DNA of 59,830 nucleotides, from contig CAJJAY010000023.1 of the NCBI GenBank assembly GCA_905182285.1, forward strand, positions 1-59,830, written 5' to 3'. Of this stretch, positions 9,989 through 16,479 are shown in pieces. This DNA comes from an uncultured Amylibacter sp. GTDB lineage: Bacteria > Pseudomonadota > Alphaproteobacteria > Rhodobacterales > Rhodobacteraceae. The notes beneath the pieces are model-generated. The model did not search any database. It was not told where the DNA came from and was given only the letters and a program-made list of their open reading frames with translations. Position numbers and translations under genes: made by a program. The stretch's first letter is position 1. Each line of letters begins with the position of its first letter.

Positions 9989-10726
9989 TTATTTTTTATT
10001 TTTTGATGAAAATAACCAAAAGTATAAAAAAGCTGGTAAGAAATTTGTTGCCCTAAATAGTAATGAAAACAAATATGGAAAATTTGTTTGGAAGTGGTTT
10101 TTTTTCATCGCACTTATAACATAATTTGCCGCCTCATCAGCTGACATTATAAATGGCATTTTAAAACTATTTTTTTCTGTCAGGCGAGTAGTAATAAAAC
10201 CAGGATTTATTAACTGAACTTTTATTGTGGATTTATATAAATCAGCTTTAATATTTTCAGCCAAATGCATCATTCCTGCTTTTGAAGCACCATATCCAAT
10301 TGCATTTGGAAGTCCTCGAAATCCTGAAAGGCTTCCTATCAAAACAATATGACCATAATCTTGATTTAAAAATTTTGGAATTACTAAGCCTAAAACCCTT
10401 GCGGCTCCAGTAAAATTAATAGCAATCATCTTCTCAACTTCATCAATATTCCAAGTAGCAGAATTCATTGGTGTATAATCGCCTGCTGCATAAATAATTC
10501 CATCTATTTTGCCGACTGATTTACATGCCTGCTTAACCCCGTCCATATCAAGAACATCAAACGCTAAGACTTTTGCTTTTGTTAAGTCAGATAATTCTTT
10601 TAATCTAACTTCATTCCTTGCACTAACTATAAGATCAGCTCCCATTTCTGATAATTGGAATGCTAGTGCACGCCCCAAACCTTCAGAAGCCCCAATAATC
10701 CAATATTTTTTTTTATAAAATTTCAT
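9989..10726 (-). CDS. Short-chain dehydrogenase/reductase, last gene of the RpoE-linked operon
   Basis: A 245-residue SDR with the nucleotide motif GASEGLG at 12-18, NAD(P)-binding D57-V58, the catalytic S132 and the Y145-x-x-x-K149 pair (YGASK). The end is hydrophobic (FPYLFSLLFRATNFLPAFLYFWLF), suggesting membrane association and a lipophilic substrate. It is the sixth and last gene of a translationally coupled operon and overlaps the preceding DUF3833 gene by four bases (ATGA). SDRs of this type occur with DUF1365 and a flavin oxidase in singlet-oxygen (RpoE/ChrR) regulons. The reaction is not known. Confidence 0.85.
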   Translation of the reverse strand: MKFYKKKYWIIGASEGLGRALAFQLSEMGADLIVSARNEVRLKELSDLTKAKVLAFDVLDMDGVKQACKSVGKIDGIIYAAGDYTPMNSATWNIDEVEKMIAINFTGAARVLGLVIPKFLNQDYGHIVLIGSLSGFRGLPNAIGYGASKAGMMHLAENIKADLYKSTIKVQLINPGFITTRLTEKNSFKMPFIMSADEAANYVISAMKKNHFQTNFPYLFSLLFRATNFLPAFLYFWLFSSKNKK

Positions 10727-11289
10727 GTATCAATTTTGCGCATATTAGCCACTAATTCACCAACTTTTATTCCAAACTTACGAAATTGTGATCTATTTAT
10801 TATTGTTCCATTTTCCATTAGGTAAAGCCAATCAACGGTATTTAATACAAAACCTCCTGCAGATTTTGGTAGTTTAATTTTATAACATAACCGAACTCCA
10901 CTTCCAGATTGCTTGCCTGCACCGATACCAATAATATCTGGGGCCGTAGCTTCAATTATTCCATTACTACCCATTACCTTCAGGTCCCAAATACGTTCTA
11001 ATTTATCTCCGTTATCATAAGTGAAAGATTCAGTCATATGGCCAACATCACCCTCCCACTTTGCATGCATATAAGCAACAAACCTTGTGTTTACTTTTCC
11101 AAAAGGGCCATAGATTACACCCTCACAAATCATGTCTCCACATAGTCTTTCACGAATATCAAATTCAGTACCCTGATTACTATAATGACCAGGTTTCTGT
11201 GAAAGAAACCCAAATTTTATACTACATAACCAGGTTATAAAAACTGCAAATATTGTACCAAACAATATAGTTGAAAAATACAAGGTCAT
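10723..11289 (-). CDS. DUF3833 family membrane-anchored protein
   Basis: A 188-residue protein with one N-terminal hydrophobic segment (about residues 3-24), then a beta-rich soluble domain containing the family's RERLCGDMICEGVIYGPFGKV stretch in outline (residues about 47-67) and a conserved DWLYLMENGTIINRS near the C-terminus. It matches DUF3833 (PF12915), of unknown function. There is no lipobox cysteine right after the hydrophobic stretch; C26 lies near it, so a lipoprotein form is not excluded. It begins one base after the MFS gene stop and overlaps the SDR gene. Its conserved association with flavin oxidase, DUF1365 and RpoE suggests a role in lipid modification or membrane stress. Confidence 0.8.
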   Translation of the reverse strand: MTLYFSTILFGTIFAVFITWLCSIKFGFLSQKPGHYSNQGTEFDIRERLCGDMICEGVIYGPFGKVNTRFVAYMHAKWEGDVGHMTESFTYDNGDKLERIWDLKVMGSNGIIEATAPDIIGIGAGKQSGSGVRLCYKIKLPKSAGGFVLNTVDWLYLMENGTIINRSQFRKFGIKVGELVANMRKIDT

Positions 11290-12510
11290 TTATATCTCCT
11301 TTAAATAATTAGATGAAAGCATCATCACAGCTCCAAGTTTTAAAATACAAGGAAGCCCTGCATAAAGTAATGTTAGTGCCCAAAGTGCTTTTGCTGTATT
11401 TGTTTCAATTGTTGAAAATCCAACCCAATCTAATGCGGGCAAAACGAAAGCTGCGGAAACAGCTAGTGTGAACTTAGCGCAAAAACTCCAGACTCCAAAA
11501 GCTTGCCCAGCATTCATACCAATATGATCAATTCTACGAGCAAAAACTGCAGGAAGAATTGTCATATCAGCACCCAAAGTAAACCCAGAAAGACAACAAA
11601 CAATTGCAAAAGAAATATAATCTCCCGCTCCTAAACTAAGAACAAAAGCAAAAATACTAATCGAGGATAACATTGCAAATATTAATATTTTCCTTGGTGA
11701 AAAATATCTTCCTAAAATACCCCATATAGGAACAGATAATGCTGCTGCGATGAAAAATATCACAAGAAATAAACCCGCTGAAAATTTAGGTCCAAGACAA
11801 TATTCAACATAAAACAAAAATAAAGTTGTTGTTACAGCAAGAGGCGCAGCATTCAATAAGGCAATAATTATTAACCTTCTTAAGACTGGGTCCTTAAATA
11901 TTACCTTTAAATTACTATTTGGCAACAAACTTACATGCCATTCTTTCTTCATCAGAAAAATTGAAATAAATACAATTATTGTAAATGATATTGAAAACCA
12001 AGTCATATCATTTATTATTTCAAAATATTTAAAAACTGCAGGAAGAGCAGAGGCTAAACAAACTCCTATTAATCCACCAGATTCTCTCCATACAGCAAGC
12101 CTAATATGACCCTTTTCACCAAGAGTTTTTGCTTTCTGCACACCTTGCGAATAAAATAAAATTGATAAAACTGAAAAACTAGAAAACAATAATATCATCC
12201 ATACAATAAACCAAATTAAAGGATCTCCAATTGCACTTACAGCAAATAAAGCCATCATTGAAAATGTAATTATCATCCCCATTATTAAAACTAATAATGA
12301 GTGCCACTTCCTCATACTATCTAGTGCACGGCCAATAAGTGGATCTTGGATAAAGTCTAAACACCTAAGAGCCAATAGAGTAAGCCCTATTAATGTCAGT
12401 GATATATCATAGTTGTCTAAAAAGAATTTAGGAGCATGCAAATAAATAGGCAAACCAGCAAATGCTAACATCCCAGAAAAAAAGCTATACCTAACTAATC
12501 CAAAATGCAT
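11290..12510 (-). CDS. MFS transporter, GPH/MFS_2-like
   Basis: A 406-residue integral membrane protein with about 12 predicted helices. The DFIQDPLIGRALDSMRKW motif near residues 52-69 is the signature of the glycoside-pentoside-hexuronide cation symporter family (MFS_2), where an Asp-Pro pair binds the coupling ion. Relatives in RpoE/ChrR-linked operons are not known to carry sugars; lipid or other cargo is possible. The start codon overlaps the stop codon of the preceding gene by one base (position 12510). No sugar-utilisation genes lie nearby, which argues against a catabolic role. Confidence 0.82.
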   Translation of the reverse strand: MHFGLVRYSFFSGMLAFAGLPIYLHAPKFFLDNYDISLTLIGLTLLALRCLDFIQDPLIGRALDSMRKWHSLLVLIMGMIITFSMMALFAVSAIGDPLIWFIVWMILLFSSFSVLSILFYSQGVQKAKTLGEKGHIRLAVWRESGGLIGVCLASALPAVFKYFEIINDMTWFSISFTIIVFISIFLMKKEWHVSLLPNSNLKVIFKDPVLRRLIIIALLNAAPLAVTTTLFLFYVEYCLGPKFSAGLFLVIFFIAAALSVPIWGILGRYFSPRKILIFAMLSSISIFAFVLSLGAGDYISFAIVCCLSGFTLGADMTILPAVFARRIDHIGMNAGQAFGVWSFCAKFTLAVSAAFVLPALDWVGFSTIETNTAKALWALTLLYAGLPCILKLGAVMMLSSNYLKEI

Positions 12511-13034
12511 TATTTTAGGCCCTGCAATCGAAGTGATCCTTCGATATCACGTGTATCATTACCAAGCCAAATACTAAAAAACTTACGCCTAATATCAAGT
12601 ATTTCTAAATCACACTGTTTTGAACCATTGTAGAAAAATCTAACCTTATCTTTACTAAGCGATAAGGCTGTAATTCTGTCACCAGCCAATACATCAACAA
12701 AACAATTTGATAATAGTTTTCTTAAAGTTTTTTTATCTTGAGAAATTAATCCTTCAATTCGATCAATCTCTTTAATTGTAGATTTTATCAAAGTACTTGA
12801 TTTAAAACTTCTCAAATATGATAAACTCAATGCATATTGACCTTCAATATCAAATGCATCAGCATTGGGTGTATATAGCACACCATTATATAATGATATT
12901 CCCAAAATTTTTGTAACAGTTTCACCTTTTTTTAGCCATTTTTCGGGTATCTCTGATGTATTTTTTGAGTACGATACCTCCGGTGAACCAACTACAAGAA
13001 TAAAAAATATTAGTATTGTATATTTCACCATCAC
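12510..13034 (-). CDS. Chalcone-isomerase-like periplasmic protein
   Basis: A 174-residue protein with an N-terminal signal sequence (hydrophobic residues about 5-18, likely cleavage near SYSK). The mature part matches the bacterial chalcone isomerase-like family (PF16036): GETVTKILGISLYNGVLYTP, then LSLSYLRSFKSSTLIKSTIKEI in outline, and a C-terminal IWLGNDTRDIEGSLRLQGL-like block. Eukaryotic relatives bind fatty acids; the bacterial proteins have no proven enzyme activity. It overlaps the DUF1365 gene by four bases and touches the MFS gene. A lipid-binding role in the periplasm is inference from fold and operon. Confidence 0.75.
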   Translation of the reverse strand: MMVKYTILIFFILVVGSPEVSYSKNTSEIPEKWLKKGETVTKILGISLYNGVLYTPNADAFDIEGQYALSLSYLRSFKSSTLIKSTIKEIDRIEGLISQDKKTLRKLLSNCFVDVLAGDRITALSLSKDKVRFFYNGSKQCDLEILDIRRKFFSIWLGNDTRDIEGSLRLQGLK

Positions 13035-13789
13035 GAAACGTCCTTAGAATTTGGGACAGGACGTTTTCTAAAAGTTGCCCCTTTATATTTAAGTTTAATA
13101 GCCTGCCAATGTATAAGGGCTAAAACCCTAAATGAGCCAAAAGGTCGAAATATGATTGTTGATAGAATAGATCGATTAGTTAATTTTTGACGAACACCAG
13201 AAAAAGTAGCCAGGACACCTTTATCATTATTTCTAAAATCAATCCATATATCCACAAATTGATCAGTTATATCAAATCGAAATTTATATTCTCCAGATAT
13301 TTCTTGAAAAGGAGAAACATGAAACACTTTTCTAGCTGTTAAAGTATGATTTTTTTTAATCTCAGACATATTATCATGGTGGCATAAATAACTATGTCTA
13401 TCTCCAAATGTATTACTAACTTCTGCTACAACTAATCTTAGTGATGAAAATTCATCATAAATCATCCAAAAACTTACTGGATTAAATACATGATTAAACA
13501 CTCTAGGCTGAGCTAAAAGAAATATCTTGCCATTTAACAAATTCTTAAACCCATACATTAATAAAATTTTACGAACCCAGTCCAATCCAGTTTCTTTATG
13601 AGATAAACCTCCATAATCATTATCATATATAGATATTAAGTTTTTGTTATTTCTGGAATAAAATAGTGGGCCATTTGTATTTGTTAAATCAGTTAGTATA
13701 TAATCAACACCATATGAAAAATTATTCTTTATATTTCCATGCCGACCATGAAAAGTTTTCCCATGTATATGATCTAAAACAGAACTCAC
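13031..13789 (-). CDS. DUF1365 family protein
   Basis: A 252-residue protein with the DUF1365 (PF07103) signature: HGRHG near residue 14, FLLAQPRVFNHVFNPVSFW-like block, then EVSNTFGDRHSYLCHH, KVFHVSPFQEISGEYKF, and the terminal IHWQAIKLKYKGATFRKRP. DUF1365 proteins nearly always neighbour a flavin amine-oxidase-like protein and often a cyclopropane-fatty-acid-synthase-like methyltransferase. The flavin partner is directly upstream here (ATGA overlap), but the methyltransferase is not in the window. Related genes in Rhodobacter have been tied to fatty-acid modification during singlet-oxygen stress; the biochemical role of this protein is unproven. Confidence 0.88.
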   Translation of the reverse strand: MSSVLDHIHGKTFHGRHGNIKNNFSYGVDYILTDLTNTNGPLFYSRNNKNLISIYDNDYGGLSHKETGLDWVRKILLMYGFKNLLNGKIFLLAQPRVFNHVFNPVSFWMIYDEFSSLRLVVAEVSNTFGDRHSYLCHHDNMSEIKKNHTLTARKVFHVSPFQEISGEYKFRFDITDQFVDIWIDFRNNDKGVLATFSGVRQKLTNRSILSTIIFRPFGSFRVLALIHWQAIKLKYKGATFRKRPVPNSKDVS

Positions 13790-15066
13790 GCAGGCACCAT
13801 TCCAATATTTTCTAAAATATCAACTGCGCTAGAATAGCCATCTTCATGAAAACCGTTACGAAGCCAAGCACCACAATACCAAGTATTGTTTCTTCCTTGT
13901 ATCGTATTGAATTTTTTTTGTGCATCTATTGCTTTACGGTCGAATACTGGATGCATAAACACTTTTTGATCATATATTAGTTCCTGTTTTATCTCTCTGG
14001 TTGGGTTAAGAGATTGAAAGAAGTTTTGGCTTCCAGAAATCGGTTGCAATCGATTCATCCAATAACTTACCCCAAGAGGTTTAACGTCATTAATTTCATC
14101 TGATGCATAAACCCAAGAAGACCAACATCTTTTACGTTTTGGCATCACAACTTCATCTGAGTGTAAAAATGCATGGTTTTTTTGATACTTGATTGCTGAC
14201 AGTAAATTTGTTTCATCTTCCGTTGGGTCCTCTAACATTCGCAATGACTGGTCAGAATGACTAGCCATAACTACACTGTCAAATCTTTGCCACTCATCTC
14301 CATTTACACGAATTTCAACTCCTGAAGGTGTTCGTTTAACCCCTTTAACAATAGAACCCTTACAAATTTTTACCCCGCGCTTCAACATATCCTGCTCTAA
14401 AAGTTTTACGTACTCTATCGAGCCGCCTTTGACTGTATACCATTGGTGATGTCCTGACGTTGCTAACAAATTATGATTTTTAAAAAACCTAATTAATGCC
14501 TCCGCAGGAAAATCTAACATTTGGCCCATAGAAGAAGACCAAATAGCTCCACTGAAAGGAAGAATGTAATAATCTCGAAACCATTCACCAGTTCCAATTT
14601 TATCTAACAAGTCCCTAAGACTCATATCTGGTCCTTCCAGAGAATTCTCAGCACTCTTATTAAATTTGATAATGTCTAATATCATTCTATGATATTTTGG
14701 ACGAATTAAATTTAATCTTTGGCCATATAAAGAGTTTAGTGTTCTCAGAGCATATTCGAATTTTCCAGAATGAACCGACACTCCAAAGCTCATATCACTT
14801 TTAATGACAGGAACATCTAATGTATCAAATAATTGTGCCATTCTTGGGTAATTTGCGTAATTAAATACAATAAAACCAGTATCAACTGGTTTATCCATAT
14901 TTTTTCCTGCCATTACAGTTCGCGCATGTCCACCTAATCGCTTTTCAGACTCGAACAATGTTACAGAATGAGATTTAGCTAAAAGATGGGCCGCACCCAT
15001 TCCTGATATTCCAGCTCCAATCACTGCAATGTTTTTGGATTGTGTATGTGGAAATTCAAACGGCAT
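13786..15066 (-). CDS. FAD/NAD(P)-binding amine-oxidase-like flavoprotein
   Basis: A 426-residue flavoprotein with a Rossmann motif GAGISG at 17-22, an ESEKRLGGHARTV FAD-binding segment, and a C-terminal TWYCGAWLRNGFHEDGYSSA block that is typical of the DUF1365-associated amine-oxidase-like family. It resembles the flavoprotein of the Rhodobacter sphaeroides RSP_1087-1091 region, which is induced by RpoE on singlet oxygen and linked to fatty-acid chemistry; that comparison is from memory. It is the first gene of a six-gene operon, about 30 bases downstream of an RpoE-like promoter, and overlaps the DUF1365 gene by four bases. The substrate is probably an unsaturated or cyclopropane acyl chain, by inference. 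Confidence 0.87.
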   Translation of the reverse strand: MPFEFPHTQSKNIAVIGAGISGMGAAHLLAKSHSVTLFESEKRLGGHARTVMAGKNMDKPVDTGFIVFNYANYPRMAQLFDTLDVPVIKSDMSFGVSVHSGKFEYALRTLNSLYGQRLNLIRPKYHRMILDIIKFNKSAENSLEGPDMSLRDLLDKIGTGEWFRDYYILPFSGAIWSSSMGQMLDFPAEALIRFFKNHNLLATSGHHQWYTVKGGSIEYVKLLEQDMLKRGVKICKGSIVKGVKRTPSGVEIRVNGDEWQRFDSVVMASHSDQSLRMLEDPTEDETNLLSAIKYQKNHAFLHSDEVVMPKRKRCWSSWVYASDEINDVKPLGVSYWMNRLQPISGSQNFFQSLNPTREIKQELIYDQKVFMHPVFDRKAIDAQKKFNTIQGRNNTWYCGAWLRNGFHEDGYSSAVDILENIGMVPA

Positions 15067-15095
15067 AGAAAAGTATCCAATTATTGGTTATTATT

Positions 15096-15123
15096 ATTAC
15101 GAACTTAGTCATCTAATAGATCA
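15096..15123 (-). promoter_or_regulatory. Candidate RpoE (ECF11) promoter for the flavin oxidase operon
   Basis: On the minus strand TGATCT (15118-15123) is followed by exactly 16 bases and then CGTAAT (15096-15101). A start of transcription about 7 bases further would give a leader of roughly 20 bases before the flavin oxidase ATG at 15066. The geometry equals that of the facing element upstream of rpoE. TGATCC-type -35 boxes are reported for ECF11 sigma factors. Confidence 0.72.
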
Positions 15124-15141: not shown

Positions 15142-15169
15142 TGATCCAAAACACAAACAACTGCGTATT
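15142..15169 (+). promoter_or_regulatory. Candidate autoregulated RpoE (ECF11) promoter for rpoE-chrR
   Basis: TGATCC (15142-15147), 16 bases, then CGTATT (15164-15169). This matches the reported ECF11 -35 sequence and the usual autoregulation of rpoE-chrR operons. The expected transcription start falls at about 15175-15177, on top of the annotated ATG at 15176, so the mRNA would be leaderless or translation starts further inside. Confidence 0.77.
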
Positions 15170-15175
15170 AGTTAT

Positions 15176-15823
15176 ATGTTAGATTTATTAGATAATATCA
15201 ATCCAGACGTTGAAGTATTAGAACGATCCTTTAAGCTGTCAGCAATCTCTAATAGGATGCTGAGCCAAGTGTTGGAAAATAACAATAATAAATCTAAAGA
15301 TTACTGGGCTCGATGTATCGTGGCTGTCGCAGGAAAAAGTGATAAAGAAGCATTTTCAAATCTGTTCACTCATTTTGCACCCAGAATTAAATCTTTTCTA
15401 ATGAAGGGTGGGGCAGACGCTATAATTGCAGAAGAATGCGTTCAAGAAACAATGGTTGCAGTTTGGAACAAAGCACATTTATTTGATCCAACAAGGGCAG
15501 CAGCTTCAACTTGGATATTTACAATAGCAAGAAATAAAAGAATTGATACCGCTCGACGAAATAATCGTCCAGAACCAGATGTATTACCCTGGGGAAATGA
15601 AACAGAGCCAGACGCATCTGAGATAATATCAATTCAAGAAGAGACAACACTATTAGCTCAAGCAGTAAAAGAATTACCTGAAAAGCAAAGAATTATAGTT
15701 GAACGCGCATTTTATAACGATTTGTCACACCAAGAAATTGCAAACGAAACAGGATTACCCCTTGGCACAATCAAATCCCGAATTAGATTAGCGCTACAGC
15801 GATTACGCCATAACATGAAATGA
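15176..15823 (+). CDS. rpoE: ECF11-type sigma factor, RpoE of the ChrR system
   Basis: A 215-residue group IV sigma factor. Region 2 spans about residues 60-125, with the DPTRAAASTWIFTIARNKRID core that is near-identical in style to singlet-oxygen RpoE proteins; region 4 spans about 155-213, with a helix-turn-helix (LSHQEIANETGLPLGTIKSRI-like). It lacks the extra C-terminal domains of larger ECFs. The first 40 or so residues precede the usual family start at about YWARC; M28 (position 15257) is the alternative start, but neither has a Shine-Dalgarno. A promoter-like element ends seven bases before the ATG. It overlaps the anti-sigma gene by four bases. The target set presumably includes the divergent operon. 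Confidence 0.92.
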   Translation: MLDLLDNINPDVEVLERSFKLSAISNRMLSQVLENNNNKSKDYWARCIVAVAGKSDKEAFSNLFTHFAPRIKSFLMKGGADAIIAEECVQETMVAVWNKAHLFDPTRAAASTWIFTIARNKRIDTARRNNRPEPDVLPWGNETEPDASEIISIQEETTLLAQAVKELPEKQRIIVERAFYNDLSHQEIANETGLPLGTIKSRIRLALQRLRHNMK

Positions 15824-16479
15824 ACACACATATGACAATTAAACATCACTTAAACGAACAACTTTTAATGGGCTATGCAGCTGGAATTTTACCAGAAGCA
15901 TTTAGCCTCGTTATTGCTACTCAGGTATCAATAAGTGACGAAGCAAGAGCACGGTTAGAAAGTTATGAAGCTATTGGTGGTGGAATGTTAGAGGACTCAG
16001 ATACAGAAGAAATGAGCCCAAATGCCTTGGATTCAGTATTCAAAAAAATAGAAAAATCAAAATCAACAGTCAAAACTAAAGCTCCTGAAATGGTTGAAGG
16101 TATATTTCCCGAACCATTAAAAAAATATACAGGTGACGAATTAAATTCTATTAAATGGAAAAATATTGGCCGTGGGGTAAAGCAATCTATTTTAAAAACA
16201 GATAAAAATGCAAGTGCAAGATTATTATATATTCCCGCTGGAACAGCTATGCCTAATCATAGCCATAATGGGCTTGAAATGACATTAGTTTTAGAGGGAT
16301 CTTTCTATGATAAAGACGGATATTTCAAGCGCGGTGATATTGAAATTGGTGATCAGGAATTACATCATAAACCAACAGCTAGTGATGAAGGTCCTTGTAT
16401 TTGTTTGATAGCTTCAGATGCACCGTTAAAGTTTAAATCAATTTTACCAAGAATATTGCAGCCGTTTTTTAAGATTTAG
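15820..16479 (+). CDS. chrR: ChrR-like cupin anti-sigma factor lacking anti-sigma-domain zinc ligands
   Basis: A 219-residue (or 215 from M5) homologue of ChrR, which binds RpoE until singlet oxygen or organic peroxide triggers its release. In R. sphaeroides ChrR the N-terminal anti-sigma domain holds zinc through H6, H31, C35 and C38. Counting from M1 here, H10 matches H6, but the other positions are Q35, S39 and A42 (IATQVSISDEARAR), so three of four ligands are gone. The C-terminal cupin keeps its metal set: H147 and H149 (PNHSHNG), E153, and H182 or H183 (QELHHKP). The gene is cotranslated with rpoE and overlaps the convergent DUF3422 gene tail by 11 bases. The reading frame is intact, so this is divergence, not decay. 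Confidence 0.9.
   Translation: MNTHMTIKHHLNEQLLMGYAAGILPEAFSLVIATQVSISDEARARLESYEAIGGGMLEDSDTEEMSPNALDSVFKKIEKSKSTVKTKAPEMVEGIFPEPLKKYTGDELNSIKWKNIGRGVKQSILKTDKNASARLLYIPAGTAMPNHSHNGLEMTLVLEGSFYDKDGYFKRGDIEIGDQELHHKPTASDEGPCICLIASDAPLKFKSILPRILQPFFKI

Follow-up and report, generated by a model that had tools for sequence, protein, structure and literature searches.

A ChrR homologue with three of four anti-sigma-domain zinc ligands replaced: a candidate zinc-free anti-sigma factor and its relatives

The ECF11 anti-sigma factor ChrR of R. sphaeroides holds a zinc ion in its anti-sigma domain (ASD) through H6, H31, C35 and C38, and its cupin domain has a second metal site formed by H141, H143, E147 and H177 (PMC6852236, figure legend). 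Assignment of the ASD ligands came from alanine substitutions made one at a time (Newman 2001, cited through PMC6852236). Zinc binding by this domain is reported to be required for ChrR to inhibit sigmaE, its precise role in the response being given as unknown (PMC6852236). How ChrR senses singlet oxygen is debated. Photo-oxidation of the ASD zinc finger has been proposed as a possible key event (PMC6432622), versus the view that the cupin is the singlet-oxygen sensor and that HHCC proteins are blind to disulfide or peroxide stress (PMC4960319). RSP1091 and RSP1090 are both required for full singlet-oxygen activation, which proceeds through ChrR proteolysis (PMC3818230); they have been described as the furan-fatty-acid enzymes UfaD and UfaO (PMC7380195).

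The chrR locus and its zinc ligands

The window, the whole stretch of 59,830 nucleotides analysed here, carries a chrR homologue at 15820-16479 (+). It is an open frame of 219 residues whose first ATG overlaps the stop codon of a sigma-factor gene. The homologous start is probably the in-frame ATG at 15832, and with this codon as M1 the residue numbers equal those of R. sphaeroides ChrR. The whole product scores 208.1 bits against TIGR02451 (anti_sig_ChrR; curated cut-off 124.5) and 55.3 bits against Cupin_7 (E 6.3e-15; cut-off 27); its score for the ChrR equivalog NF051881, 153 bits, lies under the 300-bit threshold. Among solved structures it matches best the R. sphaeroides complexes of sigmaE with ChrR, 2z2s (E 9.9e-56) and 2q1z (E 5.6e-52), with 45% identity to R. 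sphaeroides ChrR in the Foldseek alignment.

Because the first gap in the alignment to chain B of 2z2s (R. sphaeroides ChrR) comes only after residue 76 of that chain, the ASD ligand columns are beyond doubt. They read H-Q-S-A instead of H-H-C-C. H6 (codon CAC, 15847-15849) is the sole ligand kept, while Q31 (CAG, 15922-15924), S35 (AGT, 15934-15936) and A38 (GCA, 15943-15945) stand where zinc-type ChrRs have His, Cys and Cys. Residues 1-85 contain no cysteine and two histidines, H5 and H6 (four histidines if the codons before ATG 15832 are included). The cupin ligands H-H-E-H are all present, as H143, H145, E149 and H179 (R. sphaeroides H141, H143, E147 and H177; codons within 16258-16368, +). 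The sequence-only reading of this DNA had described the Gln, Ser and Ala replacements, the retained first His, the open frame and the complete cupin site, all exactly, and the columns that it picked out do align with the zinc ligands of 2z2s. Family score, cupin, partner and neighbourhood all mark the product as a ChrR, but it does not count as a ZAS (zinc-binding anti-sigma) protein, because the motif that defines these, H-X24-H-X3-C-X2-C, is absent from its ASD. The H-Q-S-A state recurs in three other genomes of the genus (L002-L004), one of which (G030) is assembled in 2 contigs, and this makes a sequencing error unlikely; error and pseudogene were both rejected on this state common to four genomes and on the low pN/pS described below.

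The partner ECF sigma factor is encoded directly upstream in the same direction (15176-15823, +; Sigma70_r2 E 1.2e-16, Sigma70_r4_2 E 4e-14), its frame ending at 15823 where that of chrR starts at 15820. Its regions 2 and 4, the TGATCY-N18-TA sites and a gene order as in R. sphaeroides bear on its membership in ECF11. The listed ATG lies just 5 bases past a -10-like element, so the true start of the sigma gene may be ATG 15257, which is preceded by the frame region 15176-15256. Pattern matching placed a sigmaE-type promoter-like site, TGATCC-N18-TATTAG, before the sigma gene (15142-15171, +) and a divergent one, TGATCT-N18-TAATAA, at 15094-15123 (-). The window by itself gives 3 matches to the pattern versus 1.71 expected, a number reached by 21 of 100 shuffles, and the promoter evidence therefore rests on conservation across loci. 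In the listed matches of the named, genus and family sets, TGATCY-N18-TA precedes the sigma gene at 30/30 zinc-less and 147/154 HHCC loci, and its backward-read form does so at 2 of 184. The divergent site occurs at 21/30 zinc-less versus 66/154 HHCC loci among these matches. Over the whole of its own genome the pattern has 69 matches (36 forward, 33 reverse) versus 15 for the backward-read control, and no regulon was drawn from them.

On the divergent side, an FAD oxidoreductase (13786-15066, -; Amino_oxidase E 1.1e-17) takes the place of RSP_1091 (UfaD) by gene order (PMC3818230), and a DUF1365 protein (13031-13789, -; PF07103 E 8.4e-65) that of RSP_1090 (UfaO), which is reported to have DUF1365 (PMC7380195). 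A chalcone-isomerase-like protein (12510-13034, -; PF16036 E 1.3e-7) and an MFS transporter (11290-12510, -; PF13347 E 1e-47) follow in the same direction. Two more frames, one SDR-like by eye and the other of 188 residues, lie closely behind at 9989-11289 (-) and are possibly part of one operon with them.

We consider it quite probable that the window protein is orthologous to ChrR of R. sphaeroides, with an ASD that folds and binds sigma without zinc and with sensing that runs through the cupin, UfaD/UfaO and proteolysis.

Occurrence and origins of ligand loss

A protein search gave a ChrR match in 24 of 33 genomes of the genus, with 22 loci that include the ASD. Seven of the 22 are HHCC and fifteen lack one or more zinc ligands, in the states HQSA (4, the window group), LHSS (3), VHSS (2), HHSS (2), and VHSA, HHSA, IHSS and THCS (1 each). 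Before the phylum-wide addition, all sets taken together comprised, among the matches listed, 298 loci, which encode 275 different ChrR-like proteins. Three of these have no ASD; the remaining 272 divide into 231 HHCC proteins and 41 that lack ligands. The phylum-wide addition brought, again among the matches listed, 84 loci that added 82 proteins (65 HHCC, 17 lacking), so that zinc ligands are missing in 58 of 354 ChrRs overall, a non-random sample of the matches listed. Among the matches listed, the 47 proteins that come from the phylum's other classes all keep every ligand. The counts are not random frequencies: one relatives set is the best 80 of at least 530 confirmed relatives, and three further searches each gave 150 places by score, with loci for 30 of them. 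Sixty of the remaining 120 places per search were fetched, being the best 60 not already included, sixty of the best 70, or sixty hand-chosen full-length ones.

Several ligand-lacking proteins come from named strains: Roseibacterium persicicum KMU-115 (L044, HHSA), Boseongicola sp. H5 (L057, HHSS), 'Maritalea mobilis' DP3N28-3 (L103, QHSV), Roseicyclus mahoneyensis DSM 16097 (L112, THSA) and Amylibacter cionae m18, now Neptunicoccus (L042, LHSS). In these five genomes no second ChrR exceeds the TIGR02451 cut-off; the zinc-less protein is the sole match, and no zinc-type ChrR turned up that could replace it. A separate observation concerns ten TIGR02451-type proteins of other Alphaproteobacteria (L400-L403, L406-L409, L411, L412), which have no ASD zinc ligands and no sigma gene found directly upstream. 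These may be of another type, stand-alone or acting on a distant sigma factor.

Trees of ChrR (with the four ligand columns removed) plus sigma were built with FastTree, leaving out rows without an adjacent sigma gene. The fewest changes between the HHCC and ligand-lacking states are 12 on a 262-row tree (50 shuffles: mean 36.9, minimum 33) and 16 on a 334-row tree with the phylum set, 46 rows of which are lacking (50 shuffles: mean 44.1, minimum 41). On these sequence trees the ligand-lacking trait is polyphyletic and scattered. A single origin of all zinc-less ChrRs was rejected, with at least 16 changes on the 334-row tree, and the HHCC state of every one of the 47 proteins outside the class makes loss, rather than gain, the likely direction. 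The ChrR tree is uncertain in places. A careful 45-row tree gives support of 100/98 to the genus group (the 15 lacking members plus the HHCC proteins L012 and L013), and the position of L012/L013 beside the window group is weakly supported (85/34). One clade of the 15 zinc-less genus members excluding L012/L013 is compatible with the data (p-AU 0.424), as is one clade of the six Roseicyclus-type rows (p-AU 0.468), so the loss count may be somewhat lower or higher than given. The earlier expectation of a clade sharing the loss, making up one distinct class, stands in part. Relatives do share the loss (15/22 in the genus; 58/354 among the matches listed), but it is scattered over the tree and leaves different residues in place, which does not bear out one class. 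As to the suggested redox insensitivity, HHCC proteins have already been argued to be unable to respond to disulfide or peroxide stress (PMC4960319).

These residues also bear on the possibility of a different metal site in the ASD, formed for example by H5 and H6 with acidic residues, or of zinc shared with the cupin or sigma. Mixed ASD-cupin coordination has been raised as a possibility (PMC6432622), and H5 and H6 are found in 4/4 of the window group, H5 in 24/24 rows of one alignment. H5, however, is equally common in HHCC proteins (219/231, among the matches listed), and among the 11 other zinc-less genus members 8 have Val, Leu, Ile or Thr at position 6. Residues 1-85 offer just the two histidines and no cysteine, and the 41 zinc-less proteins among the matches listed retain between none and two of the four ligands, different ones by lineage, which fits decay and not a new shared site. 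We thus regard another metal site as improbable. A residual role of H6 is possible, since the window group keeps it in 4/4.

The cupin site and the furan-fatty-acid genes

The cupin ligands H-H-E-H are kept in 38/41 and, in the phylum-wide addition, 17/17 zinc-less ChrRs, that is 55/58 among the matches listed, and in all 231 HHCC proteins; 2 of the 65 phylum-wide HHCC proteins (L362, L377) are unaligned at the ligand columns. In these two, which are non-alphaproteobacterial ChrR-like proteins, the columns read --D-: the site is absent or misaligned and the zinc ASD is kept, the reverse combination. A sigma gene lies directly upstream at 39/41 and 7/17 zinc-less loci (46/58, among the matches listed). 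A ufaD-like gene stands beside the zinc-less chrR at 13/17, 7/7 and 6/6 loci of three Rhodobacteraceae-type sets, among the matches listed.

Within the genus, ufaD and ufaO are both present in 12 of 16 genomes searched. The other four (G019, G010, G011 and G029, with completeness of 70%, 100%, 79% and 93%) gave no DUF1365 match and only short and weak FAD protein matches, and a CMAS search (possible UfaM) did not separate them from the rest. Their ChrRs (L020, L024, L031 and L035, respectively) are all zinc-less. L020 keeps H-H-E-H; L024 (HRES), L031 (HLEH) and L035 (FQQE) have the only degenerate cupin sites in the 58 zinc-less proteins among the matches listed. In L020/L024/L035, pN/pS is 0.468 for the cupin and 0.200 for the ASD, and identity is 0.80 for sigma and 0.51 for the cupin; in the ufa-less members the ASD and sigma thus stay better conserved than the ChrR cupin. 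The association of undetected ufa genes with a degenerate cupin represents one or two events at most and is for this reason suggestive only.

One could read these four genomes as a sign that zinc loss is a change of signal, the systems now serving another stress and no longer singlet oxygen, all the more as three of them account for the only degenerate cupins among the 58 listed. Against this stand the ufaD-like neighbours at most zinc-less loci, the 55/58 intact cupins, and Roseicyclus mahoneyensis, which is zinc-less and has bacteriochlorophyll absorption peaks, being listed among aerobic anoxygenic phototrophs (PMC12654162). A change of signal appears to us as improbable as another metal site.

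The reading of a zinc-free ASD, with sensing left to the cupin, was already offered by the sequence-only account, and it is favoured by the lost ligands, the relatives that share the loss and the complete cupin. The loss of ligands in related bacteria too suggests that zinc is not the stress sensor. Chances seem about even for a wider statement: that ASD zinc was shed repeatedly across Alphaproteobacteria with the cupin kept, so that the zinc finger is not the general singlet-oxygen sensor, and that one sub-lineage decays on, with zinc site, ufaD/ufaO and cupin site gone and a bare sigma-binding domain left under selection. If true, this would be evolutionary evidence for a sensor made of the cupin coupled to the furan-fatty-acid pathway. 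The interest of the window protein lies more in this recurrence, and in its bearing on the debated mechanism, than in the single protein. It also bounds the term 'zinc-dependent' for the ChrR family, as a ligand set needed in one species changed state at least 16 times on the tree. Zinc-less ChrRs with an intact cupin amount to natural mutants, and with several in named, sequenced strains the question is testable without building mutants.

Constraint on the zinc-less domain and comparison with known anti-sigma factors

In the window group pN/pS is 0.085 for the ASD and 0.173 for the cupin, values of which only the order of size counts because pS (0.73-0.80) is near saturation. The ASD ratio is 0.020-0.200 in four other zinc-less groups tried. 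It lies below that of the cupin in each of the five zinc-less groups compared, and likewise in the single HHCC pair compared (0.025 vs 0.042), so the low values denote constraint but no special one. Identity within the window group is 90% for the ASD (residues 5-51, ligands left out), 40% for helix IV (58-76), 79% for the cupin and 76% for sigma. HHCC pairs of like cupin identity, which are not matched for phylogeny, give 72 +- 7%, 36 +- 12% and 68 +- 5% for ASD, helix IV and sigma; for helix IV the window group (0.40) shows no conservation beyond that of these pairs (0.36 +- 0.12). Judged by these comparisons, the zinc-less ASD is under strong purifying selection and looks functional. Slightly less probable than either alternative above is a loss of anti-sigma function, with sigma constitutively active and the chrR frame a decaying relic, as might follow from the need for ASD zinc in R. 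sphaeroides (PMC6852236): it sits ill with these pN/pS values and the high ASD identity, and with the same operon and autoregulatory-type promoter-like site in 30/30 loci (among the matches listed), where a dead anti-sigma factor would presumably leave positive feedback unchecked.

An AlphaFold model built with 40 sequences has the ASD (residues 1-85; 15832-16086, +) as helices 9-17, 22-34, 36-54 and 65-75, together with the cupin, at a mean pLDDT of 83.0. Within the ASD pLDDT is 91-96 for residues 11-40, 81 for 41-50 and 52-72 for 51-70. With 10 zinc-less sequences alone it is 34-46 over residues 1-80 and the ASD is not confident; the 40-sequence model leans on zinc-type relatives, and the predicted structure thus supports a zinc-free ASD only in part. 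In a Foldseek search with the model six ChrR chains rank first (TM by query 0.63-0.73), with an rmsd of ~10 A over both domains that we read as a different domain placement. Residue 35 forms a one-residue break in the model between helices II (22-34) and III (36-54), the place of an N-cap. Among the 58 zinc-less ChrRs of the matches listed it is Ser (33), Asp (4) or Asn (3) in 40, Cys in 6 and Arg, Lys, His or Gln in 12, and the N-cap idea fails to cover the last two groups. Residue 38 is Ala in 25 and Ser in 17 of the same 58.

On the preferred reading, then, zinc in other ChrRs would be a replaceable structural brace at the helix II-III knuckle. Ser35 may cap helix III in its stead, with Ala38 in place of the second Cys, and hydrophobic helix packing would hold the bundle, as in zinc-free RseA. 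Sigma would be released not by zinc-thiolate oxidation but through the cupin with its metal site and through proteolysis of ChrR that depends on UfaD/UfaO.

Similar variation has been reported elsewhere. In the anti-sigma groups AS19-1 and AS27, Hx3Cx2C is present and absent within one group, and such mixing is taken as a sign of a structural role (PMC7406223). These belong to other ECF groups, and AS11 (ChrR) is not known to be described there as mixed, though a figure of that paper may show it; a search of the open-access literature found no report of zinc-ligand loss within ChrR. RsiW of Bacillus subtilis has the same conformation with its sigma factor SigW with or without zinc (PMC5358783); unlike the window protein, it keeps the zinc motif, is membrane-bound and has no cupin. 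A helical ASD bundle able to function in the absence of zinc, as proposed here, is known from the zinc-free class I proteins RseA (PMC6852236, PMC7406223) and RskA (PMC7406223). RseA differs from ChrR in being membrane-bound and without a cupin, and both proteins are zinc-free by another history. RskA, too, is membrane-bound and lacks a cupin, unlike ChrR. R. sphaeroides ChrR itself (2z2s, 2q1z) resembles the window protein in domain order, cupin ligands and adjacent sigma gene, and its divergent operon likewise starts with the FAD oxidoreductase and DUF1365 genes (RSP_1091-1087 order). The window protein departs from it in having three of the four ASD zinc ligands replaced and an ASD free of cysteine.
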